From: an uncultured Fidelibacterota bacterium
GTDB taxonomy: Bacteria; Fidelibacterota; UBA8477; JABMPR01
Length of the DNA: 64,000 nt
Assembly: GCA_937888365.1 (NCBI GenBank)
Contig: CALBFA010000103.1
Span: 1 to 64,000 of the forward strand
Direction of reading: 5' to 3'
Shown: one piece after another, positions 1,793 through 49,572 of the stretch
How positions within the stretch are numbered: position 1 is the first letter of the stretch
Layout: the number at the start of each line of letters is the position of its first letter
Made by a program: the position numbers and the translations under genes
Notes under the pieces: generated by a model
Database searches by the model: none
Seen by the model: only the letters and a program-made list of their open reading frames with translations
Told to the model about the DNA's origin: nothing

Positions 1793-2296
1793 ATGGAAAT
1801 TTTATCAATTGCTGTCATAAGTATCATCACATTCATCGCCGTTGTCTCCTCCTGGGTGTTTTTTTCGGGAACATTCATTATGACCATTTTAGCATTGGTG
1901 ATGGCTTGGTGGGGTGGATTTCAAGGTGAGATTCAGATTATCCACATCATACTATTATTCGCATTGTCGGCAATACTGGAAGTCATCGAATTTGGATTGG
2001 GAGCTGTTGTCGCGAAACAATATGGCGCTTCAAAACGGAGTACAATTTTGTCTATTGTCGGCGGTATTGTTGGAACAATTCTCGGGGGAAGCGTCTTTAT
2101 TTTCATTGGCGCTTTGATAGGACTTCTAACGGGTGCTTATCTGGGAGCCTATTGGGGCGAGCGTCAAGACGGAAAATCGCAAAACGAAGCGAAACGCGCA
2201 GCGCTGGCCGTTTTAGCAGGGACCATTACAAGTAAAGTTCTAAAATCAGTCGCCGTTGTTTGGATTGGTTTTTGGTTAATACAGGTCGCAGGGTGA
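1793..2296 (+). CDS. DUF456 family membrane protein
   Basis: Small inner-membrane protein of unknown function. The 167 residues hold about four hydrophobic helices. The region KQYGASKRSTILSIVGGIVG and the later glycine-rich GALIGLLTGAYLGAYWGE match the small-residue helix packing typical of DUF456 proteins, followed by a short charged loop and a last helix. Family length is normally 150-170 residues, so it looks complete. It starts 195 bases after the previous gene, behind that gene's terminator, and precedes the DUF4159 gene by about 130 bases. Co-transcription with the DUF4159 cluster is possible but not shown. Confidence 0.75.
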   Translation: MEILSIAVISIITFIAVVSSWVFFSGTFIMTILALVMAWWGGFQGEIQIIHIILLFALSAILEVIEFGLGAVVAKQYGASKRSTILSIVGGIVGTILGGSVFIFIGALIGLLTGAYLGAYWGERQDGKSQNEAKRAALAVLAGTITSKVLKSVAVVWIGFWLIQVAG

Positions 2297-2350: not shown

Positions 2351-2418
2351 AAAAGATAAAAGATAAAATTGTGAAAAATATACTTTCAAAAGGAAAATAT
2401 AATCAGCGAAAATCAGCG
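2351..2418 (+). repeat. 68-bp dispersed repeat, copy 1
   Basis: By my alignment this matches 3127-3194 at 64 of 68 positions (substitutions only). It begins AAAAGATAAAAGATAAAATT and ends in a CAGCGAAAAT-CAGCG tail. It lies immediately upstream of, and partly inside, the longest ORF of the DUF4159 gene. Confidence 0.85.
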
Positions 2419-2424
2419 CGATTA

Positions 2425-3087
2425 GTGGGAAAGGTCAATCGACATATTAGAGGGTCGATTTTAATTATGGTATTTGCATCATCTCTCTTTTCCCAAGATT
2501 TTCAATTGGCGCGTTTGCACTATGGTGGTGGCGGTGATTGGTATGCTAATCCAAGTTCCTTGCCAAACCTCATCAATTTCGTGAATCAAGAAACGACTTT
2601 AAAACTTGATGATACAGAAGCAAGAGTCAAACTCAGTGATGGAAATTTATACAATTTCCCATTTCTATATCTCACGGGTCACGGCAATATTAAATTTACG
2701 TCTGACGAAGTTTATCGCTTAAGAGATTATTTAACCCAAGGTGGATTCCTCCATGCGGATGATAATTATGGATTAGATGAATCCTTTCGTCGAGAGATGA
2801 AGCGCGTTTTCCCTAATAAAGAATGGGTCGAGTTACCCGCGACGCATCCCATATTTAATACGAAATTTAGTTTCCCTAATGGCTTGCCTAAGATACATGA
2901 ACATGATGGCAAACGTCCCCAAGCTCTTGGATTATTTCACGAAGGGAAACTCGTCGTCCTTTATACCTATGAATCGGATTTAGGCGATGGCTGGGAAGAT
3001 TTGGAAGTCCATAAAGATGGCGAAACTAAACATTTAGCGGCACTTAAAATGGGCGTCAATATTTTGATGTATTGCTTTATGCCTTAA
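2425..3087 (+). CDS. DUF4159 domain protein, exported
   Basis: Predicted periplasmic protein with a DUF4159 domain, which has a glutamine-amidotransferase-like fold; no enzymatic activity is established. The domain covers nearly the whole mature protein: FQLARLHYGGGGDWYANP at the start, LTGHGNI in the middle, then GGFLHADDNYGLD, LPATHPIF and YTYESDLGDGWED. The ORF track starts at GTG 2371, but that codon lies inside a dispersed 68-bp repeat; the GTG at 2425 gives a compact signal peptide (basic n-region, ILIMVFASSLFSQ) and is preferred, though neither start has a good ribosome-binding site. It precedes the DUF4175 gene, its usual neighbour in FCB genomes. Confidence 0.8.
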   Translation: MGKVNRHIRGSILIMVFASSLFSQDFQLARLHYGGGGDWYANPSSLPNLINFVNQETTLKLDDTEARVKLSDGNLYNFPFLYLTGHGNIKFTSDEVYRLRDYLTQGGFLHADDNYGLDESFRREMKRVFPNKEWVELPATHPIFNTKFSFPNGLPKIHEHDGKRPQALGLFHEGKLVVLYTYESDLGDGWEDLEVHKDGETKHLAALKMGVNILMYCFMP

Positions 3088-3126
3088 TGAAAAAATATTT
3101 AACACAGATAAATGCAGATAAAAAAC

Positions 3127-3194
3127 AAAAGATAAAAGATAAAATTGTGCAAAATAGACTTTCAAATGGAAAATATAATCAGCGAAAATTAGCG
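3127..3194 (+). repeat. 68-bp dispersed repeat, copy 2
   Basis: Second copy of the 2351-2418 element, again located immediately upstream of a gene of the same cluster. Just before it lies CACAGATAAATGCAGATAAA, a phrase whose relatives also occur before copy 1 and near 31059 (GCAGATAAACGCAG). Confidence 0.85.
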
Positions 3195-3226
3195 AGAGAA
3201 GAAAGTTTGAACGCGAAGAGAAGTAA

Positions 3227-6200
3227 TTGACAGAAGTAAGCAGAAATAAATCAATTATAATTGATGTAAATCCATTTAAAATGGTCTTTAAACCATTTGC
3301 CAGCGCCATTGCGAGAGGATTTCGTACAAAAAGTCTTTTAAGTCTTGGACTCTTATTACTCATAATATTTTTTGGTATTATAAGCGCTGAATCAATTCGT
3401 TATTTCGACTCTGAAATGCGCTGGTTTCTCCTTCGAATATTTATTGGGATAGGCCTTTTTGGCGCAGCCTCAATTGCGATTCTAACACAACTTTTATCAA
3501 ATCAAAAATTAAAAAGCACGACCTCGATTTCCATCACAAAAGCATTGAGTGAGAAATTGCATGAGGGAGGTCAAATAATATTACAAGGCTTTCATCTTTC
3601 AAACGACCCGATGCAAGCGGGGATTTCGGTGGAGCTCAAAGACATCGCTATACAAAATGCCTTGTCTCAATTGCAACAAGTCGATGCTCATATCCTCTAC
3701 CCTGAATTTAGAATTAAAATATTGAAAAAACGCTTCACGCTTGTATCTGGAGCGCTATTGATTTTAGCCCTTATATTCTTTCAACCCATTTCCTTAGCAT
3801 TCACAAGAGTGATGCATCCATTTACCGTTTTCGAATATCCTATGCCCGTTATTATAAAAATTCAAGCTGATGACTATGACGTTTTGGCCGGCGATACGAT
3901 TCATGTTTCGGGACAAATATTGGGTCGTGAGGCTCAATCCGTACATCTTCTTATCGATTCAAAAAATCATCATAATGATAAAATCATCCGTGTCCGTGAT
4001 TCGAATTATGAGATGATTTTACCACGCGTTCAAGAATCTTTTAGCGTCATCGCATCCTCTAAAATGGCTTATTTCTGGGAGCCTTGGACATGGGCTCGTT
4101 CGGATATAATTTCTGTTCATGTCCTCAATCGCCCCGTTGTATCATCCATGGAAACAACCATCATTCCGCCGAAATACACAGGACTAGAAATTCAGATATC
4201 AACGGATAATGCGCGTAAAATCAGTACATTACCTGGGAGTAAAATTGAAATTAGGGGTAAGAGTACAAAGGCTTTGAGCCGTGCAGTCGTTCAATTTCAA
4301 ACAAAATCAGATATTGCATGCGACGTGAAAAGCGATGTCTTTTTTGCGAACTGGACGATTCATCAATCGGATAATTTTAAATTGAATATTTTTGATGATG
4401 ACTCAATCCCAAATTTGAATCCTCTCGAATATCTGGTTTATATTGACGAAGATGCAGCGCCTTATATCAAGATTATTTTGCCTGCTATGGATGTCTTACT
4501 CGGTGATAATGCGCAATTGCCCTTGCGCTTGAAAATTGGCGATGATTTCGGTTTTTCTAAACTATTGTTGAATTATCGAATTCTAAAACCCGACTATTTT
4601 GAGCCTGATTCGACGGTTTATAAAAGCAATATTAAGATTCCCTCTGATTCGAAGACAGCCGCTGAATTCGATTGGAATTGGGACTTATCGGAACTGAATC
4701 TTATCCCTGAATGGGGCGTCGAGTACTGGTTCCAAATTTATGACAATAATAATGTCTCAGGCTATTCAATGGCGAAATCAAAGGTTTATTCGGCGCGATT
4801 GCCATCCATGTTAGAAATGTTTGAACAAACGGATGCAAAGGAAAAAGAGATTCGTCAAGATACAGAATCCGTTTTGGAATCTGTCAAAGACATCAAAGAA
4901 AAAATTGATCAACTTGCCATGGAAGTTAAGAAAGATCAGCAACTCGATTGGAATCAGCAGCAAGATGCTCAAAACGCTATGGCGGATATGAAAGCCTTAG
5001 AACAGCAGCTGGAAGCCATCAGTGAAGAGTTGGACAAAATGATTCAGGAATCACAAGAACAGAATCTTTTTGACGACGAAACATTGAATCAATTCGAAGA
5101 ACTTCAAAAGATGTTTGAAAATCTCATGACGCAAGAATTGAAAGAAGCCATGCGAAACCTTCAAGACGCTATGGAGGAAAATAATCCCCAAGCTATGGAA
5201 AATGCCATGTCTGAGTTTCAGCAATCGATGGACGAATTTAAAAAAAGTCTGGAACGCACTTTAGAATTATTCAAGCAAGTCGAGATGGAACAGAAGATGG
5301 ACGAACTTTCATCGCGGATGGCAGAGATGGCGAAACAGCAAGAAGAATTGTTGAATTCCATGGATGAAAACAGTCCCGAAACAACGGCGGCACTTGAAGA
5401 AAATATTGAAAAAGCATTTGAACAAGCTCAAAAAGTGGCAGAGGAATTAAAAGAACTTGCCGAAGAAAATGAGAATTTAGACACGAGTCAATTGGACGAA
5501 CTTCAATCTGAAATGTCTGAATCTGGCGCAAAAGAAGATTTAAGTGAAGCGACGGATCAATTTAAAGAAGGGAATATGGAAGCGGGCAAGCCGTCTGCGA
5601 AATCAGCCCAGAAAAAATTACAAAAAATGGCGCAACAAGCGGGACAAATGCAACAAGGGATGCAGCAACAAATGATGGAACAAGTCATGGGAGAATTTCG
5701 AAAAATCCTCATGAAAACCTTGTCTCTCAGTCAACGTCAGGAGGCCCTTGAAAGTGAAACGAAAAAAGCGCGTTCCACCAGTTCGACTTTACGAGATTAT
5801 GCAGATGATCAATACGACTTAACGCGCAATATTCAGCAAATTGCCGCTGAACTTTCGGATTTAGGCAACGAGACATTCGCCGTATCGGGGAAAAGTGCGA
5901 AGCAATTAGGCAAAGCATTGTCCGCGATGCAAGAGGCTATTTCCGAGATGGAAAGTCGTCGACCGGGTCAGGCGGCGGGTCAACAAAAAGGTGCACGACA
6001 AGCGTTGAATCAACTCGCGCAAGACCTCGCATCGTCCATGCAATCATTAGAAGAAGGTGGCCAAGCGTCTGGATTTCAACAGTATATGGAATCGCTCCAA
6101 AAAATGGCCGGCCAGCAACAAGGTTTAAATCAAGAAACGATGATGCAAATGGGGCAAGGCAATCAATCCATGATGCAACAAATGGCGAGACGTCAGTCAG

Positions 6201-6613
6201 CCTTAAGAGATCAATTGGGCCAAATTGAGCAAGGAATGGGGAATGATGGCCGCATGCTCGGAGATTTAGGAAAAATCGGTGAAGAGATGGAAGCCGTCGC
6301 CAAAGAACTCAATGCGAAGCGACCTAATAAAAAAGTTGTTGAGCAGCAGGAACGTATTTTGTCCAAATTGTTAGATGCTCAACGCTCCGCTCATCAACGT
6401 GATTTTAGCAAAAAACGCAAATCCGAGACGGCCTCGGAAATTAATAATTCAAGTCTTAGGATAGAGCTTCCCGACGATTTAGGCGAGAAGCGAAATATTC
6501 TCTACGAAGAATTGATTTACAGCCTAAAACAGTCATATACGCCAGAAGAGCGCGCACTGATTCAGCAATATTTCCAACTTTTAGAAGAGATGGAGACACC
6601 CCTTGCGCCGTAA
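3227..6613 (+). CDS. DUF4175 family membrane protein with long coiled coil
   Basis: Large envelope protein of unknown function. Two membrane helices lie near residues 34-54 and 65-86 and a third near 172-192. A beta-rich extracytoplasmic region follows (about 200-530). From about 540 to 1060 the chain is a Gln/Glu/Met/Lys-rich helical region with heptad character and runs such as GQMQQGMQQQMMEQ. The 1128 residues are within the normal range for DUF4175. The TTG start at 3227 gives a short basic N-terminus before the first helix; an in-frame ATG at 3281 is an alternative. The stop overlaps the start of the TPR gene by 11 bases, suggesting translational coupling. Related loci usually also carry MoxR ATPase and DUF58 genes, which are not in this window. 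Confidence 0.8.
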   Translation: MTEVSRNKSIIIDVNPFKMVFKPFASAIARGFRTKSLLSLGLLLLIIFFGIISAESIRYFDSEMRWFLLRIFIGIGLFGAASIAILTQLLSNQKLKSTTSISITKALSEKLHEGGQIILQGFHLSNDPMQAGISVELKDIAIQNALSQLQQVDAHILYPEFRIKILKKRFTLVSGALLILALIFFQPISLAFTRVMHPFTVFEYPMPVIIKIQADDYDVLAGDTIHVSGQILGREAQSVHLLIDSKNHHNDKIIRVRDSNYEMILPRVQESFSVIASSKMAYFWEPWTWARSDIISVHVLNRPVVSSMETTIIPPKYTGLEIQISTDNARKISTLPGSKIEIRGKSTKALSRAVVQFQTKSDIACDVKSDVFFANWTIHQSDNFKLNIFDDDSIPNLNPLEYLVYIDEDAAPYIKIILPAMDVLLGDNAQLPLRLKIGDDFGFSKLLLNYRILKPDYFEPDSTVYKSNIKIPSDSKTAAEFDWNWDLSELNLIPEWGVEYWFQIYDNNNVSGYSMAKSKVYSARLPSMLEMFEQTDAKEKEIRQDTESVLESVKDIKEKIDQLAMEVKKDQQLDWNQQQDAQNAMADMKALEQQLEAISEELDKMIQESQEQNLFDDETLNQFEELQKMFENLMTQELKEAMRNLQDAMEENNPQAMENAMSEFQQSMDEFKKSLERTLELFKQVEMEQKMDELSSRMAEMAKQQEELLNSMDENSPETTAALEENIEKAFEQAQKVAEELKELAEENENLDTSQLDELQSEMSESGAKEDLSEATDQFKEGNMEAGKPSAKSAQKKLQKMAQQAGQMQQGMQQQMMEQVMGEFRKILMKTLSLSQRQEALESETKKARSTSSTLRDYADDQYDLTRNIQQIAAELSDLGNETFAVSGKSAKQLGKALSAMQEAISEMESRRPGQAAGQQKGARQALNQLAQDLASSMQSLEEGGQASGFQQYMESLQKMAGQQQGLNQETMMQMGQGNQSMMQQMARRQSALRDQLGQIEQGMGNDGRMLGDLGKIGEEMEAVAKELNAKRPNKKVVEQQERILSKLLDAQRSAHQRDFSKKRKSETASEINNSSLRIELPDDLGEKRNILYEELIYSLKQSYTPEERALIQQYFQLLEEMETPLAP

Positions 6614-8495
6614 AAATTTACCATTTCTATTTTCAATGTTGTTGATTTTTGTTCTATCATTGATGTCTCCTATTTATGGACAAAAGAGTCAGAGACAAGC
6701 GTTTGATATCCAATATAAGCGAGCTCAAAGTTACGAGCGATTCGGACAAAATGATGAAGCCTTAGCTTTGTATCTTTCGATTTTGGAAAAGAATCCAGAT
6801 GAGCGTCGCGCTTATTATCGCGCAATGCAACTCTACGAAGCTAATGAAAATTGGGACGGTCAGTTGACATTATTAGGGGAACGCTTAAAGCTATCTCCAC
6901 AAGATATAGAATTAAGAGCCGATGAAGCACGCATCCGCTATGGCATGGGCGAAAAGGAATTGGCGAAAGAAATTTGGGAGACGATTGTTGAAAATGCAGG
7001 TCGCAGCGAGAATGTATTTCGCCTTGTTTCAAACGCACAAATTCGAACCCAAGCTCTGGATTTAGCGAAAGCAACCTTGTTAGCGGGACGTCAGAAATTG
7101 GGACGGAATTCATTATTTGCCAACGACTTAGCGCGCCTCTATAAAGTGAGGGGCGAAATAGATTTAGCGACACAGGAACTATTGCTCTATTTCGATGCAA
7201 ATACCCACGCAAAAAACTATATAGAGCGCGAACTCGTCGGTTTTCTAGACAATCCTGATAATCTTCCTATCGTTATTGAAGCATTAAAAATATGGGGAAA
7301 ACAGACGGACAATATTTTGGCGTCTATAGATTTTAGTGTTACAATTTTACTTCATGAAAAGAAATATGATGATGCGGTTCATGAAATTTCGGCTCAGACA
7401 CCAAGCATCCTCGCCCCTCAAACGCTTTTGAATTATGCCATGAGTTTTGAGGCAGAAAAAGCCTGGAGCGCAGCTCAAAAGGTTTATGAAAAACTCATTT
7501 TAGAAACGAAAAATGAGAAATATGCTGGAGCTGCTATTTTGGGTTTAGGACGCGCTATTGAGCATCAAGTTTTAGAAAATAACGAGGAACAATCCATGGC
7601 TGGATTTTATGAGGGGAACACCTTTTTTGCGATTCCTTTTGTTTTTTCGGGTTCGAATCAAGAAAAATTGAATGAGGCGATTTCACTATATAAAGATTTG
7701 GATCGGGGGCAAAAAAGCGGTCTCCGCGCCGAAGCAGTATTTCGCCTAAGTGATTTGCAGCTTCGCGTTTTAAGCGACACCGATTCAGCAATCAAAGGTT
7801 TTGAAACCGTTATGATGACGCCAAGTAATAGAAATTTGCAACAAGAGGCGGGCTTTCGCCTTATTGAATGTCACCTTGTGAAAGGCGATACGGTTGCCGC
7901 AAAAAACATATGGAATCAAGTCATTACATTGACAGGTGCCGACGAAGATGATTCCCAATTTATTGCGGAAAATTTGCGGATATCCCTTCATTCAAAAAAT
8001 TGGACGTATCTAAAAAAAGCCTTGTTAAATCTTTCCGGTTCAACGCGTCCCGCCGATCCGCTATTTAATGATGGCTTGGAACTGTCGTCATTTATAGAAG
8101 GCAATGGGACCTTAGAGGATGAAAATCTCAAGCGCTATTTGGAAGCAGAAGTTCTCATTGGGCGACACAAACTCAGCGAAGCGTCAAAATTACTGAAACT
8201 GATTCAAAGGGGAGACGTGGCAGACGACGCGGCGATTCGAAGAATTGAGCTTTTAATGCTGTTGAAGCAATTCAAAGCAGCCGAAGATGAACTAAATATC
8301 TTTTTAGAAAAGTATGAAACGTCGGATTGGTTTGATGTCGCACTTATCTGGAATGCGGAGTTACAGGAAAAAAGAGGCGTAGAAAATGTGACGTTAATTC
8401 CTCATTATGAACGCGTCCTTGTGGAACGACCCTATTCTCTTTATGCGTCCCAATGTCTGACAAAAATTCGTCAACTTCGTGGCGATTTTAATTAA
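6603..8495 (+). CDS. Exported TPR-repeat protein
   Basis: Predicted periplasmic protein-interaction scaffold. A signal peptide spans about residues 1-26 (LPFLFSMLLIFVLSLMSPIYGQ). The remainder is almost entirely helical with tetratricopeptide-like repeats, for example around AQSYERFGQNDEALALYLSI and in the second half around AEAVFRLSDLQLRVLSDTDSA. No catalytic motif is visible. The TTG start overlaps the end of the DUF4175 gene by 11 bases, and the next gene begins 45 bases downstream, so DUF4159-DUF4175-TPR and the following gene look like one operon. It probably works with the coiled-coil protein at the inner membrane. Confidence 0.8.
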   Translation: MRRKNLPFLFSMLLIFVLSLMSPIYGQKSQRQAFDIQYKRAQSYERFGQNDEALALYLSILEKNPDERRAYYRAMQLYEANENWDGQLTLLGERLKLSPQDIELRADEARIRYGMGEKELAKEIWETIVENAGRSENVFRLVSNAQIRTQALDLAKATLLAGRQKLGRNSLFANDLARLYKVRGEIDLATQELLLYFDANTHAKNYIERELVGFLDNPDNLPIVIEALKIWGKQTDNILASIDFSVTILLHEKKYDDAVHEISAQTPSILAPQTLLNYAMSFEAEKAWSAAQKVYEKLILETKNEKYAGAAILGLGRAIEHQVLENNEEQSMAGFYEGNTFFAIPFVFSGSNQEKLNEAISLYKDLDRGQKSGLRAEAVFRLSDLQLRVLSDTDSAIKGFETVMMTPSNRNLQQEAGFRLIECHLVKGDTVAAKNIWNQVITLTGADEDDSQFIAENLRISLHSKNWTYLKKALLNLSGSTRPADPLFNDGLELSSFIEGNGTLEDENLKRYLEAEVLIGRHKLSEASKLLKLIQRGDVADDAAIRRIELLMLLKQFKAAEDELNIFLEKYETSDWFDVALIWNAELQEKRGVENVTLIPHYERVLVERPYSLYASQCLTKIRQLRGDFN

Positions 8496-8540
8496 AATAT
8501 GCAAACGAACTGGCTGAAAATGACTGGAAAATACGTTTAA

Positions 8541-9803
8541 ATGAAAAATAGAATTCTAATCACAATAATTTTTATAATGACATTTTCGACAAGTTACGGA
8601 AGCAAGATTCTCATTCCCATGGATGCATCACAAACGGATCATTTAAAAGCCTATGGCATTGCGTTTTGGGTTTTGGAACGAGGACAAAATGTGGAATGGC
8701 TCCTTAATTATCGCGGTGGTTCATTTTTAATGGATTTTAATAATGAAATTGTACAAGAATGTCGCATACGAGACGTCAAAAATGAAACGATTTCATCAGG
8801 CTCTGAAACGCAAATTTACGCCGATATTGAAGGTGGGAATATGGATGTCGTCATCCTAGAAAAGACGCCTAATATCGCCGTTTACACACCGCCGGGAAAA
8901 CAACCTTGGGACGACGCCGTAACGCTAGCCCTTACCTACGCTGAAATTGAGTACGACGAAGTTTGGGATTTGGACGTGCTCGAGGGCAAATTACAGGGTT
9001 ATGATTGGCTTCATTTGCATCATGAAGATTTCACCGGTCAGTATGGCAAATTTTATCGTAATTATCGCAATGCACCTTGGTATCAGCAACAAAAACAAGA
9101 GTATGAATCATTTGCACACAATCATGGATTTATGTCTGTGTCCCAAGAAAAGAAAATGGTAGCGAAAAAAATAAGCGAATTTGTGGGGAACGGCGGATTC
9201 CTATTTGCCATGTGTAGCGCAACGGATGCCTTTGATATAGCACTCGCTGCCGAAGGAATTGATATTGTTGATCGCGTTTATGATGGCTCACCCGTTGATC
9301 CTCAGGCGCAAGAAAAATTGAATTATTCCAAGTCCCTAGCTTTTGATAATTATCAGCTTTATACGGATCCAATGTTATATGAATATAGCGACATTGATTT
9401 CCCTTCTTCTATCCGTCCTGTGGCGCCTGGAGCGGAAGCAGACTATTTTACACTCTTCGAATTCTCAGCAAAGTGGGATCCTGTACCAACGATGTTGACG
9501 CAAAATCATGTGGGTATTGTAAAGGGTTTTATGGGACAAACGACGGGCTATAGACGTGACAAAATTAAAAAGCATGTCATCATCATGGGTGATGTTCCGA
9601 ACGGTGAACAAGTAAAATATATACATGGTAATGCCGGAAAAGGGACCTTTACCTTTTTAGGGGGACATGATCCCGAAGACTATCAGCATTTCGTGGGAGA
9701 CCCACCGACTCAGCTTTCGTTGCATCGCAATTCGCCTGGGTATCGACTTATTTTAAACAATGTGCTTTTCCCAGCAGCGAAGAAAAAAGATCGAAAAACG
9801 TAA
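8541..9803 (+). CDS. Exported protein of the family often labelled 'asparagine synthetase B'
   Basis: From memory of the family, databases commonly name these FCB proteins asparagine synthetase B, but nothing here supports that reaction: there is no N-terminal nucleophilic Cys2 glutaminase domain and no SGG-x-DS ATP-binding loop. Visible are a signal peptide (residues 1-20), a first domain beginning KILIPMDASQTDHLKAYGIA, a LHLHHEDFTG motif near residue 155, GGFLFAMCSATDAFD near 217, and a conserved end GGHDPEDYQH followed by LILNNVLFPAAKKK. The GGFLFAM and HHED regions suggest a GATase/ThuA-like fold, as in DUF4159. It is the fourth gene of the DUF4159/DUF4175/TPR cluster. Family membership is fairly sure; function is unknown. 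Confidence 0.65.
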   Translation: MKNRILITIIFIMTFSTSYGSKILIPMDASQTDHLKAYGIAFWVLERGQNVEWLLNYRGGSFLMDFNNEIVQECRIRDVKNETISSGSETQIYADIEGGNMDVVILEKTPNIAVYTPPGKQPWDDAVTLALTYAEIEYDEVWDLDVLEGKLQGYDWLHLHHEDFTGQYGKFYRNYRNAPWYQQQKQEYESFAHNHGFMSVSQEKKMVAKKISEFVGNGGFLFAMCSATDAFDIALAAEGIDIVDRVYDGSPVDPQAQEKLNYSKSLAFDNYQLYTDPMLYEYSDIDFPSSIRPVAPGAEADYFTLFEFSAKWDPVPTMLTQNHVGIVKGFMGQTTGYRRDKIKKHVIIMGDVPNGEQVKYIHGNAGKGTFTFLGGHDPEDYQHFVGDPPTQLSLHRNSPGYRLILNNVLFPAAKKKDRKT

Positions 9804-9916: not shown

Positions 9917-10621
9917 ATGATGCTGAAACAAAATAAATTACAACCGAAAACTTGGATCATTTTTTGGCTTTTTACTTTTGCCTTTTTTGCAAGCTCGCTA
10001 TTTGGACAAATTGAAAAAGAAAACGGTACCTTGTATTATCGTGAATGGAGTCGAGCAGATGTATCACCTCCACAAACTCGAAGTGAATTATTAGGCAAAC
10101 CTCATGTAGGTGTAACGTATAAATTTGATAAAGTTATTGCGGTTGTTTGGTATAATGCTGAGGATCGAATCGTAAAGCGAGAACGCTCATTTTATGACCA
10201 GAATGGTAACCCTAAAACCCGCAAAGTCTTTGATGGGAATAATCAGCTTGTAAAGGAATTTCAATTTCGAACCAACGCAGGGACTTTGCCTGAATTAAAA
10301 TTTGTCTTCGGGGAAAATTTTGTTCAAATCGATCGTTATTTTTTGGTTGAAATCGACTACAATAGTAATGGAAGGGAACTTCTATTTACCATCAAAGAAA
10401 TTTCAGGCGAACTTATTTGCCATCGTCAGACTGCCTATAATGAGGATGGTCGGAAGCGTGAAGAAATTTTCGTAAATGATACGAACAATAGTATTATTAC
10501 GCGCACAAAATTCAAATATGATATTGAAAAAAATCAGACAGTTGTCGAAGAATATGATGGTGATGCAAACTTAACAAGTCGTGTGGTTTTATATGGTCAT
10601 GACGATTTTTTAACCAAATAG
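9917..10621 (+). CDS. Exported hypothetical protein with MORN/RHS-like strand repeats
   Basis: Not recognised at family level. A signal peptide ends near FFASSLFGQ. The mature part has short repeating strands of the type found in MORN- or RHS-like beta sheets: RSFYDQNGNPKTRKVFDGNN, TAYNEDGRKREEIF and TVVEEYDGDANLTSRVV. Such repeats are found in surface or antitoxin-like proteins, but no partner is adjacent. It begins 113 bases after the previous gene with two in-frame ATG codons at 9917 and 9920. A separate transcription unit is likely. Confidence 0.6.
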   Translation: MMLKQNKLQPKTWIIFWLFTFAFFASSLFGQIEKENGTLYYREWSRADVSPPQTRSELLGKPHVGVTYKFDKVIAVVWYNAEDRIVKRERSFYDQNGNPKTRKVFDGNNQLVKEFQFRTNAGTLPELKFVFGENFVQIDRYFLVEIDYNSNGRELLFTIKEISGELICHRQTAYNEDGRKREEIFVNDTNNSIITRTKFKYDIEKNQTVVEEYDGDANLTSRVVLYGHDDFLTK

Positions 10622-10682: not shown

Positions 10683-12866
10683 TTGAAAACAAGGCTCATC
10701 GTATTTTCATTATTATCGAGTATTTTATTCGGACAATGGGTTGGTTTTACAAAATCAATTAATCCAGATTTTGCTGTTGGTAGCATTGCGCAAAGCGAAG
10801 TCGCTATTTATGAGGAACTCGTTTCTCTAATAGATAATTCCCAAACGCAAATCGACATCTGTGCTTATGATATCGAGCTTCAAACCGTCGCAGAGGCTCT
10901 CATTTCTGCGCAAAATCGCGGGGTTAATATTCGTGTCATCACTGATCACGACTACCTCGCTGAAGAAGGTCTGATTTCGTTGCAAAACGCCGGTGTTACG
11001 ATTATCGATGATGCCTTTGGCGTCCTTAACAGCGGTAGTGGTGAAATGCATAATAAATTCGTTGTGATTGATGCCTCAATCGTCTGGACCGGCTCTTATA
11101 ATTTAACACATTACGGAACCGTCAGTAACGCAAATAACGCTCTTTGGATTGAAAATACCCAGCTAGCAGCCATCTACATGGATGAATTTAACGAAATGTG
11201 GGGCAGCGAAACGATGGTCCCTGATGAGAATAATGCACGGTTTCACAACCAAAAAACGAATAATACGGCTCATGATGTCGTGATTGATGGCTATCATTAC
11301 GGCGTTTATTTCTCGCCTAGCGATGCCCCCACCCAACACATTATTGATGCCATTTCTACGGCGAATTATGAAATATATTTTAGCATTTTTGCCTTTTCAA
11401 CAGATGAGATTACGGATGCAATGTTGGCGGCACAAGAAGCAAATCCTGATCTTGAAGTCAAAGGGCTTTTTGAATCAACCTATTGGAATACGTCTTGGAG
11501 CGAAAGCATCCCCATGCGGGGAGAAGGCGATCGGGCATGGGCAAATCCTGCGGAAGTTTATGAGGACAATGTCCAAGCTGATGAGGGACTTAAGCGACTT
11601 CATCATAAAGTTATGATAATTGACGGACAGCATCCCAGCAGCAATCCCATTATCATTACGGGTTCCATGAATTGGTCTGCAAATGGCGAATCGTTGAATG
11701 ATGAAAACACACTGATTATTGAAAATCCAAGCATCGCAAATCAATATGTCCAAGAATTTGCAGCACGATTTATGGAGGCAGGCGGCGTTATTGAACCGCT
11801 TCAAATTAACTTATTATTTGACCCGCCCTTTATTGATTTTAACACCGTTTTCGTGGGTGAGACATCAAGTCGCGCGGTGACGGTCGTTAATACATCTGAA
11901 TCACCTATTGAATTTGAAATTCCAGTAATTTCCAACAATATTTCTGGTATTTTGACAGATGGCTTACCGTTGTCAACTCTGTTACCCGGCGACACATTAA
12001 GCTTTTCCGTCAATTTTTCGCCTTCATATCATGGGGTATGCGCATCGGCGTTGGATGTGCTTGGGAATGACGGTTCGCCTATTAGCTCATCGATTGACGT
12101 GCTAGGACGCGGCGTTGGAAACGGAGACCTCGCAGTCGTGATAAACGAATTTATGGCGAATCCAACGCAAGTTGCTGACACTAATGGCGAATGGATCGAG
12201 TTGATGAATCAAAGCGCATTTCCCGTTCGAATCGATCATTGGAGTCTTCAAGACAACGATGGCGAAATATTTCAGATTCTAAGCGACGCCGTACTCGTTC
12301 TTGAGAGTCAGGCGTTTTTTGTGCTCTCTGTTAATGGCGATGCCGCAACTAACGGTGGGTTGGATGTTGATTACGAATACTCTGGACTGATTCTCGCGAA
12401 TACATCTGATGAAATTATTTTAATTGATGAAAACTCCACCACAGTTGATGCTGTTCTTTATAATAGCTCATGGACGATTCCTACAGGAAAAAGTTTGGCT
12501 CTTGATGATGTGGGCGGATGGAATCCTTCTACGACACAATATGGATATGGTGATTTTGGGACACCCGGTGCATTAAATGAGTACCAAGTTGAAATTGATA
12601 AACAGTATATCGCTAAATCTTACAACCTTATATCTGCCTACCCCAATCCTTTCAATGGGACACTACGAGTTGACATCGCATCAAATATTTCAAATGAATA
12701 CGTCATCTATTCTCTTCTAGGTCAGGAAATTACACGACAAAATATTTCCAATAGTTCGTCATTTACGTGGAGGCCACACAACAATATCCCATCAGGTGTT
12801 TATTGGGTGGTTCTATTAAATAAAGGGCAACGTGTGGTAAGTGAGAAAGTGTTGTTTTTGAAGTAG
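10683..12866 (+). CDS. Secreted phospholipase-D-like protein with lamin-tail and T9SS sorting domains
   Basis: Predicted extracellular phosphodiesterase (nuclease or lipase) of the phospholipase D superfamily. The TTG start gives a signal peptide MKTRLIVFSLLSSILFGQ. Two complete HKD motifs are present: HNKFVVID (residues 123-130, followed by GSYN) and HHKVMIID (307-314, followed by GSMNWS). After the two PLD halves come an Ig-like 'choice-of-anchor' domain (about 380-475), a lamin-tail-like domain starting VVINEFMANP (about 490-600), and a C-terminal sorting domain with AYPNPFNG and YSLLGQEI. Domain order suggests a cell-surface or released enzyme acting on extracellular DNA or phospholipid; the substrate cannot be told from sequence. 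It ends about 225 bases before a toxin-antitoxin cassette. Confidence 0.85.
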   Translation: MKTRLIVFSLLSSILFGQWVGFTKSINPDFAVGSIAQSEVAIYEELVSLIDNSQTQIDICAYDIELQTVAEALISAQNRGVNIRVITDHDYLAEEGLISLQNAGVTIIDDAFGVLNSGSGEMHNKFVVIDASIVWTGSYNLTHYGTVSNANNALWIENTQLAAIYMDEFNEMWGSETMVPDENNARFHNQKTNNTAHDVVIDGYHYGVYFSPSDAPTQHIIDAISTANYEIYFSIFAFSTDEITDAMLAAQEANPDLEVKGLFESTYWNTSWSESIPMRGEGDRAWANPAEVYEDNVQADEGLKRLHHKVMIIDGQHPSSNPIIITGSMNWSANGESLNDENTLIIENPSIANQYVQEFAARFMEAGGVIEPLQINLLFDPPFIDFNTVFVGETSSRAVTVVNTSESPIEFEIPVISNNISGILTDGLPLSTLLPGDTLSFSVNFSPSYHGVCASALDVLGNDGSPISSSIDVLGRGVGNGDLAVVINEFMANPTQVADTNGEWIELMNQSAFPVRIDHWSLQDNDGEIFQILSDAVLVLESQAFFVLSVNGDAATNGGLDVDYEYSGLILANTSDEIILIDENSTTVDAVLYNSSWTIPTGKSLALDDVGGWNPSTTQYGYGDFGTPGALNEYQVEIDKQYIAKSYNLISAYPNPFNGTLRVDIASNISNEYVIYSLLGQEITRQNISNSSSFTWRPHNNIPSGVYWVVLLNKGQRVVSEKVLFLK
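12687..12743 (+). repeat. T9SS-tail segment matching the remnant at 14226-14282
   Basis: This 57-bp stretch of the phospholipase-D-like gene encodes ISNEYVIYSLLGQEI and aligns in frame with 14226-14282 at 47 of 57 bases by my count. Many differences are at third codon positions, which points to homologous coding sequence and not to a fresh duplication. Confidence 0.7.
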
Positions 12867-13091: not shown

Positions 13092-13895
13092 ATGAATGTA
13101 AAATTATCACAAAAGCAGATTGGTCAGAGAGTAACGGAGCTCCGGAAGAATAAGGGATTATCTCAAGAAGATTTGGCTAAAAGAGTTAATATCTCTCGTC
13201 CATCTTTGGCTCAAATTGAATTGGGCAACAGGAGTGTTAATATTCTTGAATTACAGCAACTGTCAATAGAATTAGGATTCTCATTAGATGATTTTATGTC
13301 TAAAAATTTTGAGATTCATCAAGAAATTGATGGTGATAATGAGAAAAGCACTAACATAGCTGAAGAACGTATTGCTGTCCCAATTTTAAAAATTGATAAG
13401 CTCAAAAATGTGCTATTATACATTTTAGAAAAATGTGCAGGGAAGCCAAATGTTGGAGAAACGGTTCTTTATAAGTTGTTGTACTTTTCTGATTTTAATT
13501 ATTACGAGTTATATGAAGAACATTTAACGGGTGCAAAATATAGAAAATTACCATTTGGCCCTGTCCCTCAACAATTAAATACAATTATCAAACAAATGAT
13601 TGAGGGAGGACAATTGAAGCGTGTTAAGACTGAATATCACGGTTATCCTCAAACTCGTTATTTACCTTTAGAGAAGTCTGATTTAACTCAATTGCAAGCA
13701 AGTGAAACGGACATTCTTGATAGGGTTATAGAACAAATGAGCGACTGGTCGGCTACTGCAATAAGTAATTATTCTCACAATGATTTACCTTGGTTGGCTT
13801 CAAAAGAGGGAGAAGAAATAAATTATGAATTAGCTTTTTATAGAGAGGCTCCTTTCTCTGTAAGAAATTATGGTGATGAAATTGAACAAGAATGA
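13092..13895 (+). CDS. XRE-HTH plus Panacea (DUF4065/SocA-like) antitoxin
   Basis: Antitoxin and probable autorepressor of a type II toxin-antitoxin pair. Residues about 8-66 are a lambda-repressor-like HTH (RVTELRKNKGLSQEDLAKRV, SRPSLAQIELGNRS). Residues about 100-245 are a Panacea/DUF4065 domain: KLKNVLLYILEKC, GETVLYKLLYFSDF, FGPVPQQLNTII and the late WSATAISNYSH segment. Panacea domains are known to neutralise many unrelated toxins, and HTH fusions are a common arrangement. The stop overlaps the toxin start by four bases (ATGA), the usual coupling. The AT-rich, weakly biased coding sequence differs from the neighbouring housekeeping genes, consistent with acquisition. Confidence 0.9.
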   Translation: MNVKLSQKQIGQRVTELRKNKGLSQEDLAKRVNISRPSLAQIELGNRSVNILELQQLSIELGFSLDDFMSKNFEIHQEIDGDNEKSTNIAEERIAVPILKIDKLKNVLLYILEKCAGKPNVGETVLYKLLYFSDFNYYELYEEHLTGAKYRKLPFGPVPQQLNTIIKQMIEGGQLKRVKTEYHGYPQTRYLPLEKSDLTQLQASETDILDRVIEQMSDWSATAISNYSHNDLPWLASKEGEEINYELAFYREAPFSVRNYGDEIEQE

Positions 13896-14236
13896 TTTTT
13901 GAGGAATTAACAGAATTTAAAAAAGATTTGAAAAAACTCTTAAAAAAATATAGAACGCTAGAGAATGATTTAGATGTTGTAAAAAAGGTGTTAGAATTTT
14001 CTCCTACAGAAAGACCTCCGTTCAGTTTTCGTATTGACAATTTAGGTTTGGAAACGTGTGTGATAAAAGTGAAAAAAATTGCTTGTAGAGCATTAAAAGG
14101 AAGAGGTGTAAATTCAGGTTTGCGATTAATATATGCTCATTTTTCAAAAGAAGATAAAATAATCTTTATTGAGTTATATCATAAAAATGATAAAGAATAT
14201 GAAGACAGAAAAAGAATTATGGACAATTTCAAATAA
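13892..14236 (+). CDS. RelE/ParE-like toxin
   Basis: Predicted toxin partner of the preceding Panacea antitoxin, probably a ribosome-dependent mRNA endonuclease of the RelE/ParE superfamily. The 114 residues start with two helices (EELTEFKKDLKKLLKKYRTL), then strands and the family-typical core: KIACRALKGRGVNSGLRLIY and KIIFIELYHKNDKEYED. The GRG-N-SGLRLIY and IELYHKNDK segments are the RelE-type sheet with basic and hydroxyl side chains; the exact catalytic residues cannot be assigned by eye. The last three codons and the stop run into a remnant of a T9SS tail (14226-14282), so the 3' end of the gene sits at an insertion boundary. Confidence 0.8.
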   Translation: MIFEELTEFKKDLKKLLKKYRTLENDLDVVKKVLEFSPTERPPFSFRIDNLGLETCVIKVKKIACRALKGRGVNSGLRLIYAHFSKEDKIIFIELYHKNDKEYEDRKRIMDNFK

Positions 14237-14282
14237 ATACGTCAACTATTCTCTTCTTGGACAGGATATAACTCATCACAAT
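14226..14282 (+). pseudogene. Remnant of a T9SS C-terminal sorting domain
   Basis: The reading frame starting ATT TCA AAT encodes ISNKYVNYSLLGQDITHHN, aligned to ISNEYVIYSLLGQEITRQN in the phospholipase-D-like protein upstream (13 of 19 residues). The frame continues only as unrelated sequence and is part of track ORF 14169-14387, which is otherwise not a gene. It has no start of its own and begins inside the toxin's last codons. It is best read as the 3' scrap of a second sorting-domain gene interrupted by the toxin-antitoxin cassette. Confidence 0.6.
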
Positions 14283-14383
14283 TTTAATATTTTCATTATC
14301 GTTTTAAGCTACTTTTCTCGTAGTTTAGGCGGAATGAAATATTCAATAAAATCTGACAAAAAAATGAATAGAAAGAAGCGACC

Positions 14384-31009: not shown

Positions 31010-31217
31010 GGTTAACTCTTTTTGGCTCAAGCAAAACATGAAAGAAGGTCTCTGCAGATTGCGCAGATAAACGCAGAAAAAAGCATTGCAAGGTAAGTAT
31101 CTTGCATGCTGTTTAACAATTCCTCTCAATACTTGTTATTTAATCATTTTGTCACTGCAACCACCCCGCCCCATAGCGTCGTGACACCCCTCCTTAAAAA
31201 AGGATGGGAATTTGTCT

Positions 31218-31253
31218 CGTGGGTTTTCATTATTTTTAATTATGAGACCCACG
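31218..31253 (+). repeat. Inverted repeat CGTGGGT...ACCCACG, copy 1
   Basis: A perfect 7-bp arm pair surrounds a 22-base AT-rich centre that itself has CAT/ATG symmetry. The same block recurs in the third repeat copy near 32089-32124. Confidence 0.7.
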
Positions 31254-31303
31254 CTAGCAATTAATTCTCACAGATAAGTATTCATCAAACCCGCTCATCA
31301 GCT

Positions 31304-31324
31304 CCCCTCCTTTGTAAGGAGGGG
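31304..31324 (+). repeat. CCCCTCCTT-TGT-AAGGAGGGG hairpin
   Basis: A perfect 9-bp stem with a 3-base loop. The same stem with other loops recurs around 31687-31707 (loop ATC) and around 32174-32194 (loop GCT), while a decayed form is in the first copy at about 31187. Confidence 0.75.
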
Positions 31325-31482
31325 CAGGGGTGGTAGGGTTGCTAATTAGCAATTACAAATGACTCGGCAACCCTAATGCGGTTATCGTGCCTCGATACAT
31401 CCCGACGCTCCGCGCTTCCCTACGGCGGGACACTCGGCAACCTTTATGTGGTCATCGAGTATCACGAAGAAAATCAAAAGAA

Positions 31483-31546
31483 AACGTCGTAGACGTTGTT
31501 ATCTTTGTAATAATGGCGAACAACGAAACATAACCTCGTAGAGGTT
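31483..31546 (+). repeat. Paired GTA-loop palindromes with promoter-like TATCTTTG, copy 1
   Basis: AACGTCGTAGACGTT (31483-31497) and AACCTCGTAGAGGTT (31532-31546) are perfect palindromes around GTA that differ only by one compensating base pair. Between them lies TATCTTTG (31500-31507), identical to the -7 element proposed upstream of the toxin-antitoxin operon. Confidence 0.7.
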
Positions 31547-31858
31547 TGATAACTTTTTCTGCTCCCTCTGCGGATAGACTTTTAAAAAACCGCAAGCAAG
31601 ATGCTTATGTTACTTTGAATCCCCATCAATACTTGTTATTTAATCGTTTTGTCACTGCAACCACCCCGCCCCATAGCGTCGTGACACCCCTCCTTATCAA
31701 GGAGGGGAATTTGTCTCGTGGGTTTCTAATTAATAATTAGCAATTACAAATGACTCGGCAACCATCATGCGGTTATCGTGCCTCGATACATCCGCCAACC
31801 AGCGGATACTCGGCAACCACATACAGGTCACCAAGTATCACGAAGAAAAACAAAAACA

Positions 31859-31923
31859 AACGTCGTAGACGTTGATATCTTTGTAATAATGCTCACCAAC
31901 CTAGACTTAACCTCGTAGAGGTT
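31859..31923 (+). repeat. Paired GTA-loop palindromes with promoter-like TATCTTTG, copy 2
   Basis: AACGTCGTAGACGTT at 31859-31873 and AACCTCGTAGAGGTT at 31909-31923 flank TATCTTTG at 31876-31883. Stems and TATCTTTG are unchanged relative to copy 1, while the sequence between has several substitutions. Confidence 0.7.
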
Positions 31924-32396
31924 TGATTGCTCCTCTGCTCTCATGGCAGTAAAAAGAAAAAACCGCAAGCAAGATGCTTATGTTACTTTGAATCCCCTCA
32001 ATACTTGTTATTTAATCATTTTGTCACTGCAACCACCCCGCCCCTAGCGTCGGGACACCCCTCCTTATCAAGAAGGGGAATTTGTCTCGTGGGTTTTCAT
32101 TATTTTTAATTATGAGACCCACGCTAGCAATTAATTCTCACAGATAAGTATTCATCAAACCCGCTCATCAGCTCCCCTCCTTGCTAAGGAGGGGCAGGGG
32201 TGGTAGGGTTGCTAATTATTAATTAATAATTAGCAATTACAAATGACTCGGCAACCCTAATGCGGTTATCGTGCCTCGATACATCCCGACGCTCCGCGCT
32301 TCCCTACGGCGGGACACTCGGCAACCTTTATGCGGTCATCGAGTATTTTCGTGCATACGAAAATGTATCGAGATGAACCTTAACGCTGATATTTTT

Positions 32397-47554: not shown

Positions 47555-48574
47555 ATGGGCAAAATTAAAATAGGGCTCATGGGTTTTGGGGAAATCGGGA
47601 GAGACATCTACCGTCTTTCAACTCAACTTGATGATGTCGATGTTACCGCCATTAGCGATATTGGGAAACCAGAAATTCTTCATTACTTACTCAATGCAGA
47701 AGGTTTACCTGATCAAAAAGAAGTGTCGATTGATGGCAACTATCTTGTTTGTGGTAAGCAAAAAACAAGAATGGTTAAAGGCATTGCTCCATCAGATGTC
47801 CCCTGGGATGTGTTAGATGTTGATTATGTCATTGACACGACTCAAAAATACTCAACAAAAGAAGACATGGCTGACCATATCAAAGCAGGCGCTAAACGTG
47901 TAATTCTTGCAAGTTTACCCACGAATGATATTGATGCAATCATCATTCCTGGCATTAATGACGATTCAGCAAAAGCGAGCGATGTGTTTATTTCAGCCGG
48001 TTCCGCTACAACAAACGCTTTAGCTATCATGCTAAAAGTTATTGATGATGCCTTTGGCATTGAGTATGCCATGATGACATCGATTCATGCTTATACAAGC
48101 GATCAGCCTATCCGTGATCGTGTCGCTAAAGACTTTCGTCGCAGTCGTTCCGCCGCCGAAAATATTATTCCTAATATCTCGCGTGCGACTTCTTTCGTTG
48201 AGAAAATCTTGCCTAAATTCGCTGGAAAAATTGACGGCTCAGCTTTGAACGTACCCGTTGGAATGGGCTCACTTTTGGATTTATCGTCCGTACTGACAAG
48301 AATACCCGATACCGTTGAAGAATTTAATGCTGCCATTGAAGCGGGTTTAAATAAAATTCCTGATGTTGCAGAAGTTGTCCATGACCCAATTGTTTCCAGC
48401 GATGTCATCGGAAATAGAAAATCGGTTGTATTTGATGAGCTCGCAACGCTTAAAACAAAAGGTAGAATGGTGAAAACACTTTCTTGGTATGACAATAGTT
48501 TAGCTCAAGCAGCTCGCATTCTAGATGTCGTAAAAATATATGGAAAATTGGATGGTAAAGGAGGCAACGCATGA
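47555..48574 (+). CDS. GAPDH-like protein lacking the catalytic cysteine (predicted pseudoenzyme)
   Basis: Homologue of glyceraldehyde-3-phosphate dehydrogenase over its full length (339 residues), but the active-site motif SNASCTTNCLAPM reads SAGSATTNALAIM here, so the nucleophilic Cys is Ala151 and the second Cys is Ala155. The catalytic histidine (His178, IHAYTSD) and the NAD loop GFGEIGR remain. The phosphate-binding Arg of the ARVPVP motif is replaced (ALNVPV), and the C-terminal WYDNEWGYSNR is WYDNSLAQAAR. It cannot form the thioacyl intermediate, so phosphorylating GAPDH activity is not expected. It overlaps the active gap gene by four bases and may form mixed tetramers with it or act as a NAD-sensing regulatory subunit; both are inferences. 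Confidence 0.9.
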   Translation: MGKIKIGLMGFGEIGRDIYRLSTQLDDVDVTAISDIGKPEILHYLLNAEGLPDQKEVSIDGNYLVCGKQKTRMVKGIAPSDVPWDVLDVDYVIDTTQKYSTKEDMADHIKAGAKRVILASLPTNDIDAIIIPGINDDSAKASDVFISAGSATTNALAIMLKVIDDAFGIEYAMMTSIHAYTSDQPIRDRVAKDFRRSRSAAENIIPNISRATSFVEKILPKFAGKIDGSALNVPVGMGSLLDLSSVLTRIPDTVEEFNAAIEAGLNKIPDVAEVVHDPIVSSDVIGNRKSVVFDELATLKTKGRMVKTLSWYDNSLAQAARILDVVKIYGKLDGKGGNA

Positions 48575-49572
48575 AAATTGCAATAAATGGCTTTGGCCGA
48601 ATCGGACGTTCTGTTTTCAGAATTCTTGAAAAAAGAGATGATATAGATGTAGTTGCCATCAATGACCTATTTGATCATAATGCCTTGGCATATTTACTAC
48701 GCTATGATACCGTAATGGGACGACTTCCTGGTGGAGCAAAAATCGAAGATGACATGATGATTACAAAGAATTCGAAAGTTAAAATGTTTAGCGAGAGAGA
48801 TCCTAAACAATTGCCTTGGGGTGATTTGGGCATCGATGTGGTCGTGGAAGCAACGGGTGTTTTTAGAAAACGTGAGCAGATTCAAATGCACTTAACAGCG
48901 GGTGCTAAGCGCGTTATTCTAACGGTCCCTTCAAAAGATGAGATTGATAATACTATTGTTATTGGCGTGAACGAAAATGAGTTAAAAGCATCTGACCTGA
49001 TTGTCTCAAATGCTTCTTGCACAACAAACTGCCTTGCACCAATGGCTAAAATATTAAATGATAATTTTGGCATCAAAGAAGGTGTGATGACTACGACGCA
49101 TGCCTATACAAATGACCAACGTCTTGCTGATGTACCGCATTCAGATTGGCGCCGCTCCCGAGCAGCAGCCGAAAATATCATCCCAACCACAACGGGTGCA
49201 GCCCGCGCTGTTGGAAAAGTTTTACCTGTTTTAAATGGTAAACTAGACGGTCTTGCAGCACGCGTTCCTGTTCCTGATGGCTCCGTCGTTGACCTTGTTT
49301 GCGAACTCGAAAAAGATGTGACCATTGAAGACATTAACGCAGCCGTAAAAGCCGCCTGTCAAACAGATCGCATGAAGAATATTGTCCAATATTCAGAAAA
49401 TCATCTGGTTTCTTCTGACATTATTGGTAATCCATTTTCATCTATTTATGATGCCTCATTTACGCGTGTTGTGGGTAAACGCATTGTTCGTACATTAAAT
49501 TGGTATGATAATGAGTGGGGATATTCAAATAGAGTCGTTGACTTGATGGGACTTATTCGAGACCTGGATTAA
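48571..49572 (+). CDS. gap: Glyceraldehyde-3-phosphate dehydrogenase, type I
   Basis: Converts glyceraldehyde-3-phosphate, NAD and phosphate to 1,3-bisphosphoglycerate. All hallmark residues are intact: NGFGRIGR at the N-terminus, the active-site SNASCTTNCLAPM with Cys150, His177 in THAYTNDQ, ARVPVPDGS for phosphate binding, and NWYDNEWGYSNRV near the end. The 333 residues are standard. Its ATG overlaps the stop of the GAPDH-like paralogue (ATGA), and the pyruvate kinase gene starts one base after its stop, so all three are translated from one message. Confidence 0.97.
   Translation: MKIAINGFGRIGRSVFRILEKRDDIDVVAINDLFDHNALAYLLRYDTVMGRLPGGAKIEDDMMITKNSKVKMFSERDPKQLPWGDLGIDVVVEATGVFRKREQIQMHLTAGAKRVILTVPSKDEIDNTIVIGVNENELKASDLIVSNASCTTNCLAPMAKILNDNFGIKEGVMTTTHAYTNDQRLADVPHSDWRRSRAAAENIIPTTTGAARAVGKVLPVLNGKLDGLAARVPVPDGSVVDLVCELEKDVTIEDINAAVKAACQTDRMKNIVQYSENHLVSSDIIGNPFSSIYDASFTRVVGKRIVRTLNWYDNEWGYSNRVVDLMGLIRDLD

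Follow-up and report, generated by a model that had tools for sequence, protein, structure and literature searches.

A conserved and co-occurring set of DUF4159, DUF4175, TPR and AsnB-like genes for exported or membrane-anchored proteins in Marinimicrobia and other phyla

Within a 64,000-nucleotide stretch of DNA (positions 1 to 64,000 of contig CALBFA010000103.1; hereafter the window) from an uncultured bacterium of the candidate phylum Marinimicrobia, four adjacent forward-strand genes spanning 2425-9803 encode, in this order, a DUF4159 protein of a family resembling glutamine amidotransferases (GATases) and ThuA (2425-3087), a DUF4175 protein of 1128 aa (3227-6613), a tetratricopeptide repeat (TPR) protein of 630 aa with an N-terminal signal or anchor segment (6603-8495) and an exported protein of 420 aa known as ‘AsnB-like' (8541-9803). 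The open reading frames (ORFs) lie where an initial annotation of the window had placed them, and the overlap that it reported between the DUF4175 and TPR genes measures 11 nt. All four products are exported or membrane-anchored, as that annotation had proposed: hydropathy analysis found transmembrane stretches in DUF4175 and a single, N-terminal hydrophobic segment in the TPR protein, and inspection found signal-peptide-like N-termini in DUF4159 and the AsnB-like protein, both of which fall below the transmembrane threshold of the hydropathy scan. DUF4159 belongs to its Pfam family (PF13709; E 2.5e-70; 236.6 bits against a curated cut-off of 25.9), as does DUF4175 (PF13779; E 2.6e-13; 49.3 bits against 27.3), and the TPR protein matches several TPR Pfam families. 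The AsnB-like protein has no sequence match in Pfam, NCBIfam or PDB, and the NCBIfam scan of all module proteins returned nothing over the cut-offs. The set is thus made up in part of known families, with its presumed catalytic member, the AsnB-like protein, falling outside every curated family searched.

At least 25 of the 35 loci from the phylum Marinimicrobia preserve the order DUF4159-DUF4175-TPR-AsnB-like in full; the count was read by eye, and at a few loci genes were overlooked or broken up by the ORF caller. In one family of the phylum the AsnB-like gene is located elsewhere in the genome. The same order recurs in KSB1 and Krumholzibacteriota and is partial in Latescibacterota. The TPR and AsnB-like genes are adjacent in Balneolota, overlap (gap −4) in many loci and are separated by one clpX-like gene in Ignavibacteria and Chlorobi. 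The neighbourhood is therefore conserved, recurring far beyond chance, and the recurrence that the initial annotation gave for the Fibrobacteres-Chlorobi-Bacteroidetes (FCB) superphylum is borne out by gene order and by the AsnB-like protein itself. Among the top 80 of at least 594 matches, that protein is 57-74% identical to the window protein across Marinimicrobia, Calditrichota, KSB1, Bacteroidota, Ignavibacteria, Kapabacteria, Balneolota, Cloacimonadota, Latescibacterota, Gemmatimonadota, Zixibacteria, Krumholzibacteriota and Eisenbacteria. Within the phylum, median identity to the window proteins is 68% for AsnB-like, 57% for DUF4159, 28% for DUF4175 and 22% for TPR; judged by these values, AsnB-like and DUF4159 are the slowly evolving core, whereas DUF4175 and TPR drift.

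Co-occurrence was determined in 148 Bacteroidota genomes, drawn evenly. The AsnB-like protein was found in 108 of them, DUF4159 in 109 and DUF4175 in 109, with all three in the same 108 genomes, often at separate loci (Fisher P value 5e-35, uncorrected for relatedness). The sole difference among the three presence sets is one genome (G156), which carries only a divergent paralogous DUF4159/DUF4175 pair. In Flavobacterium, a dnaB-like gene is found close to the AsnB-like gene, with DUF4159 and DUF4175 at two further loci, while in other Bacteroidota DUF4159 adjoins DUF4175 and the AsnB-like gene is not alongside. A second lineage with joint absence is provided by three small genomes from the window's phylum, all near-complete, that are devoid of AsnB-like and DUF4175, with DUF4159 absent in two and represented by a weak match in one. 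Of the ‘cluster' originally annotated, the conserved operon order stands, but the Bacteroidota presence sets sharpen it into a co-occurring gene set rather than an operon alone.

The name ‘AsnB-like' is misleading, as the protein is not an asparagine synthetase: an identity as asparagine synthetase B, with which it shares nothing but the name, was rejected after no asparagine-synthetase or amidotransferase Pfam domain was found in any of the 12 members scanned, at E values up to 5. Its AlphaFold2 model (pLDDT 87, pTM 0.88) gave 2gk3 (STM3548) as best Foldseek match, with an E value of 9e-6 and a probability of 1.00 but TM-scores of only 0.33 (query) and 0.52 (target); other matches included 3soz, structures of GH42 and of lacto-N-biose phosphorylase, and one chain from a levan utilisation complex. 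The matches to 2gk3, 3soz and GH42 are ones that we take to represent GATase1-like families, and the GATase/ThuA-like fold initially assigned to the protein agrees with the GATase1-like fold predicted by AlphaFold2 and Foldseek. What it appears to share with GATase1-fold proteins is the fold class of the model and the position of one cysteine, Cys225 (codon 9213-9215, forward strand), which sits at the nucleophile elbow between strand 220-224 and helix 226-236 in the DSSP assignment of the model. It differs from them in that there is no significant sequence similarity, and in being exported with an extra C-terminal part that ends in a conserved lysine-rich tail. The residues His376-Asp377-Pro378-Glu379-Asp380 (codons 9666-9680, forward strand) are candidates for the rest of a catalytic triad; Cys225 and all five of them are invariant in 80 of 80 AsnB-like sequences. 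The AsnB-like protein is probably a cysteine enzyme. No relatives of it were found on plasmids or phages.

DUF4159 has a solved relative, 4i66 (profile E 2.6e-19), itself uncharacterised. In 39 sequences Asp131 is invariant and Asp130 nearly so (residues numbered from an alternative start at 2371), and a short profile match of 16 columns (E 2.6e-4, probability 42%) pairs GGFLHADD of DUF4159 with GGFLFAMC of the AsnB-like protein, which is suggestive, and only that, of Asp131 taking the place of Cys225. The family also turned up in other settings. A DUF4159 gene 53% identical to that of the window is present on the Corynebacterium crudilactis plasmid pCRULAC1 (NZ_CP015623.1; L188, 7968-9155), where it adjoins a dihydrofolate reductase gene amid resistance genes and insertion sequence elements, and the region seems to be a piece of FCB chromosome that was captured. 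A DUF4159 domain distinct from the standalone form lies inside a 426-aa protein (L181; G020:C13), and a single Latescibacterota genome contains eight DUF4159 matches.

The DUF4175 protein has three transmembrane stretches by hydropathy (36-54, 68-86 and 165-183), followed by a beta-rich immunoglobulin (Ig)-like part (~208-524) and a helical part rich in Gln, Glu and Met (~528-1123). The length of 1128 residues initially annotated is exact, and the helical part, put there at about 500 residues, comprises about 590; Gln makes up 14.2% of it, Glu 13.7% and Met 7.7%, as against 3.1, 4.6 and 1.8% in the Ig-like part. Foldseek matches of the AlphaFold2 model (pLDDT 84, pTM 0.51) were Ig-like or beta-sandwich arrays, which inform on the domain type only. 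Given the positively charged N-terminus and the three transmembrane helices, the bulk of the protein probably resides in the periplasm. The picture of a membrane-anchored helical scaffold accompanied by a TPR protein was upheld by these transmembrane and composition analyses and by the TPR Pfam matches; whether joined by sugar- or peptide-binding partners or not, such a scaffold might be the periplasmic assembly machine that the initial annotation imagined.

Literature searches on DUF4159, DUF4175 and the combined names returned no assigned process, in line with the initial annotation: the library searched yielded no paper on DUF4159 and, for DUF4175, only work on the Acinetobacter division protein AdvA, which has a DUF4175 match, and no process for the module. 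RL3501 is presumably the DUF4159 protein of the RL3499-RL3502 operon (cmdA-cmdD) of Rhizobium leguminosarum, which differs from the module in being organised around MoxR and DUF58. According to a title cited in PMC5118466, mutants in RL3499-RL3502 concern a broadly conserved operon with effects on envelope integrity and cell morphology, and another title describes a TPR protein with envelope function in R. leguminosarum; as far as these titles go, the likeness is that of a conserved operon tied to the envelope, with a TPR envelope protein in the same organism. TIGR02302 proteins (RSP_0730; Azorhizobium caulinodans) are likewise envelope-related in regulation or phenotype, a TIGR02302 gene belonging to the CenR regulon (PMC9275681) and an Azorhizobium deletion being linked to exopolysaccharide overproduction in a title cited in PMC6842974. 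They are of low complexity and weakly alike to DUF4175, but the window DUF4175 is far below membership, at 16.6 bits (E 0.0019) against an NCBIfam cut-off of 394.3.

The reading that we prefer, and put forward tentatively, is that the four genes constitute a core periplasmic envelope module of the FCB superphylum, with a probable cysteine enzyme and an inactive relative on DUF4175/TPR scaffolds. DUF4175 would be the inner-membrane anchor, with three transmembrane helices from which Ig-like domains in tandem and a long helical arm extend into the periplasm, and the TPR protein would serve as adaptor. The AsnB-like protein would be an enzyme of GATase1 fold whose substrate is a conserved component of the envelope and whose activity is probably that of a Cys-His-acid amidase or hydrolase, and DUF4159, of related fold with the nucleophile replaced by Asp, a binding or regulatory partner; judging from their conservation, these two may be the conserved functional proteins on otherwise drifting scaffolds. 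By analogy with alphaproteobacterial gene sets that hold related proteins, the module's role would likely be the upkeep of envelope integrity. The data show the gene set and its co-occurrence, how far it is conserved, the signs of export, the predicted folds and the invariant residues; the physical complex, the catalysis, the inactivity of DUF4159 and the process served are what we infer.

Several observations weigh against this proposal. With the low TM-scores, the active-site assignment of the AsnB-like protein is based on the order of residues along the chain and on secondary structure, and its His-x-x-Glu spacing differs from the His-x-Glu usual in class I amidotransferases. In Bacteroidota the AsnB-like gene stands apart from the others, and many genomes also have DUF4159 and DUF4175 at separate places, so that the proteins may function in parallel rather than jointly. 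The weakness of the TIGR02302 match, finally, makes the transfer of alphaproteobacterial phenotypes uncertain.

An unlikely alternative is a rearranged Bat/Cmd system, in which a MoxR AAA+ ATPase would act in trans with the four proteins as its clients or partners. It draws on Bacteroidota clusters such as that at L175 (7237-17997; similar ones at L176-L178), in which MoxR-DUF58-BatA-short DUF4175-unknown-TldD-PmbA is accompanied by a divergent DUF4159 on the opposite strand, and from which it follows that the same fold pair is used twice. It also draws on the window's own genome, with MoxR plus DUF58 at two other loci (C19 and C43), and on the presence of DUF4159 in the control Caulobacter. 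These clusters resemble the module in having paralogues of both DUF4159 and DUF4175, yet the DUF4175 relative is only ~710-780 aa and matches the Ig-like region only, and they contain MoxR, DUF58 and TldD/PmbA and no AsnB-like gene. No MoxR or DUF58 gene was found near the module itself, the DUF58 matches being on other contigs or far away; the partners that the initial annotation had expected as neighbours stand instead beside the paralogous pair, and as operon partners they were rejected. Moreover, DUF58 is found in 60 of 60 relatives, genomes without the module included, and G156 keeps the MoxR-type paralogous pair yet has neither AsnB-like nor the full-length pair.

It is equally improbable, in our estimate, that the genes encode four independent, old FCB housekeeping proteins that share no mechanism and were jointly lost where lineages became reduced or host-associated. 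The scatter of the Bacteroidota genes beside common housekeeping genes, for instance dnaB, clpX and RsmE/TsaD-type genes (neighbours identified from sequence by eye) would fit such a history, but the near-identical presence sets of three families are hard to explain without a common role, and both the TPR/AsnB-like overlap and the recurrence of one four-gene order across several phyla speak against it.

A role as an accessory of the type IX secretion system (T9SS), or in the maturation of its cargo, is decidedly unlikely. The T9SS marker SprA is found in all 108 module-bearing Bacteroidota genomes and window genes carry T9SS sorting tails; however, 9 Bacteroidota genomes that lack the full module have SprA as well, as do 58 of 60 relatives, among them the three near-complete genomes without the module. 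The T9SS therefore does not need the module, which was rejected as its component or dependency. There is little to recommend a periplasmic carbohydrate-binding or sensing apparatus in which both GATase-like proteins bind glycans non-catalytically, as the Foldseek matches to GH42, lacto-N-biose phosphorylase and the levan utilisation complex chain are countered by the invariant Cys at the AsnB-like elbow and by strict conservation across phyla that differ in carbon use, which argues for a common internal substrate.

Around the module, a DUF456 integral membrane protein (1793-2296, forward strand; PF04306, E 9.4e-20) is encoded directly upstream of DUF4159; with a DUF456 cluster just upstream of DUF4159 in 13 of the 35 phylum loci, it is a frequent neighbour and probably not part of the core. 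Downstream, an exported 234-aa protein (9917-10621, forward strand), conserved in 8 loci of the bacterium's own family, is probably accessory. Two forward-strand copies of a 71-bp direct repeat, 93% identical, are located at 2351-2421, ending just before the DUF4159 GTG, and at 3127-3197, upstream of DUF4175. The whole genome holds no further copies, which rules out a dispersed element and points to a local duplication. The first GTG would give DUF4159 an alternative extent of 2371-3087; because 2351-2421 is a repeat copy and the GTG at 2425 yields a clean signal-peptide-like N-terminus, the latter is probably the start. A promoter and terminator scan across the module region found no more than expected by chance.

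Elsewhere in the window, 13092-14236 encodes a protein with a helix-turn-helix and a likeness to SocA/Panacea antitoxins and then, in an overlapping gene, a protein of 114 aa without Pfam match, probably a toxin-antitoxin pair. A 60-bp stretch is shared at 82% identity between 12687-12746, in the T9SS tail region of a PLD gene, and 14226-14285, at the end of the toxin-like gene, and is possibly a remnant of duplication or insertion. Two glyceraldehyde-3-phosphate dehydrogenase genes in tandem, of which the first is divergent, lie at 47555-49572, with a TrmB-type regulator ahead and a pyruvate-kinase-like gene after them. At 31106-32109, between pyruvate:ferredoxin-oxidoreductase-like and TonB-receptor-like genes, repeated short ORFs with the common peptide QYLLFN-FVTATTPP suggest an intergenic repeat.

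That the four genes amount to a new core envelope pathway of the FCB superphylum, founded on the AsnB-like proteins as a periplasmic cysteine enzyme family and with the dead paralogous fold of DUF4159 on a DUF4175/TPR scaffold, is conceivable, if somewhat doubtful. An exported protein of 420 residues that keeps ~60% identity between Marinimicrobia and the culturable Flavobacterium, Gemmatimonadota and Cloacimonadota, and has no Pfam or NCBIfam family, marks a considerable gap in what is known of these bacteria. It is present and absent almost exactly where DUF4159 and DUF4175 are, which joins the three into one genetic unit, testable together in Flavobacterium johnsoniae.

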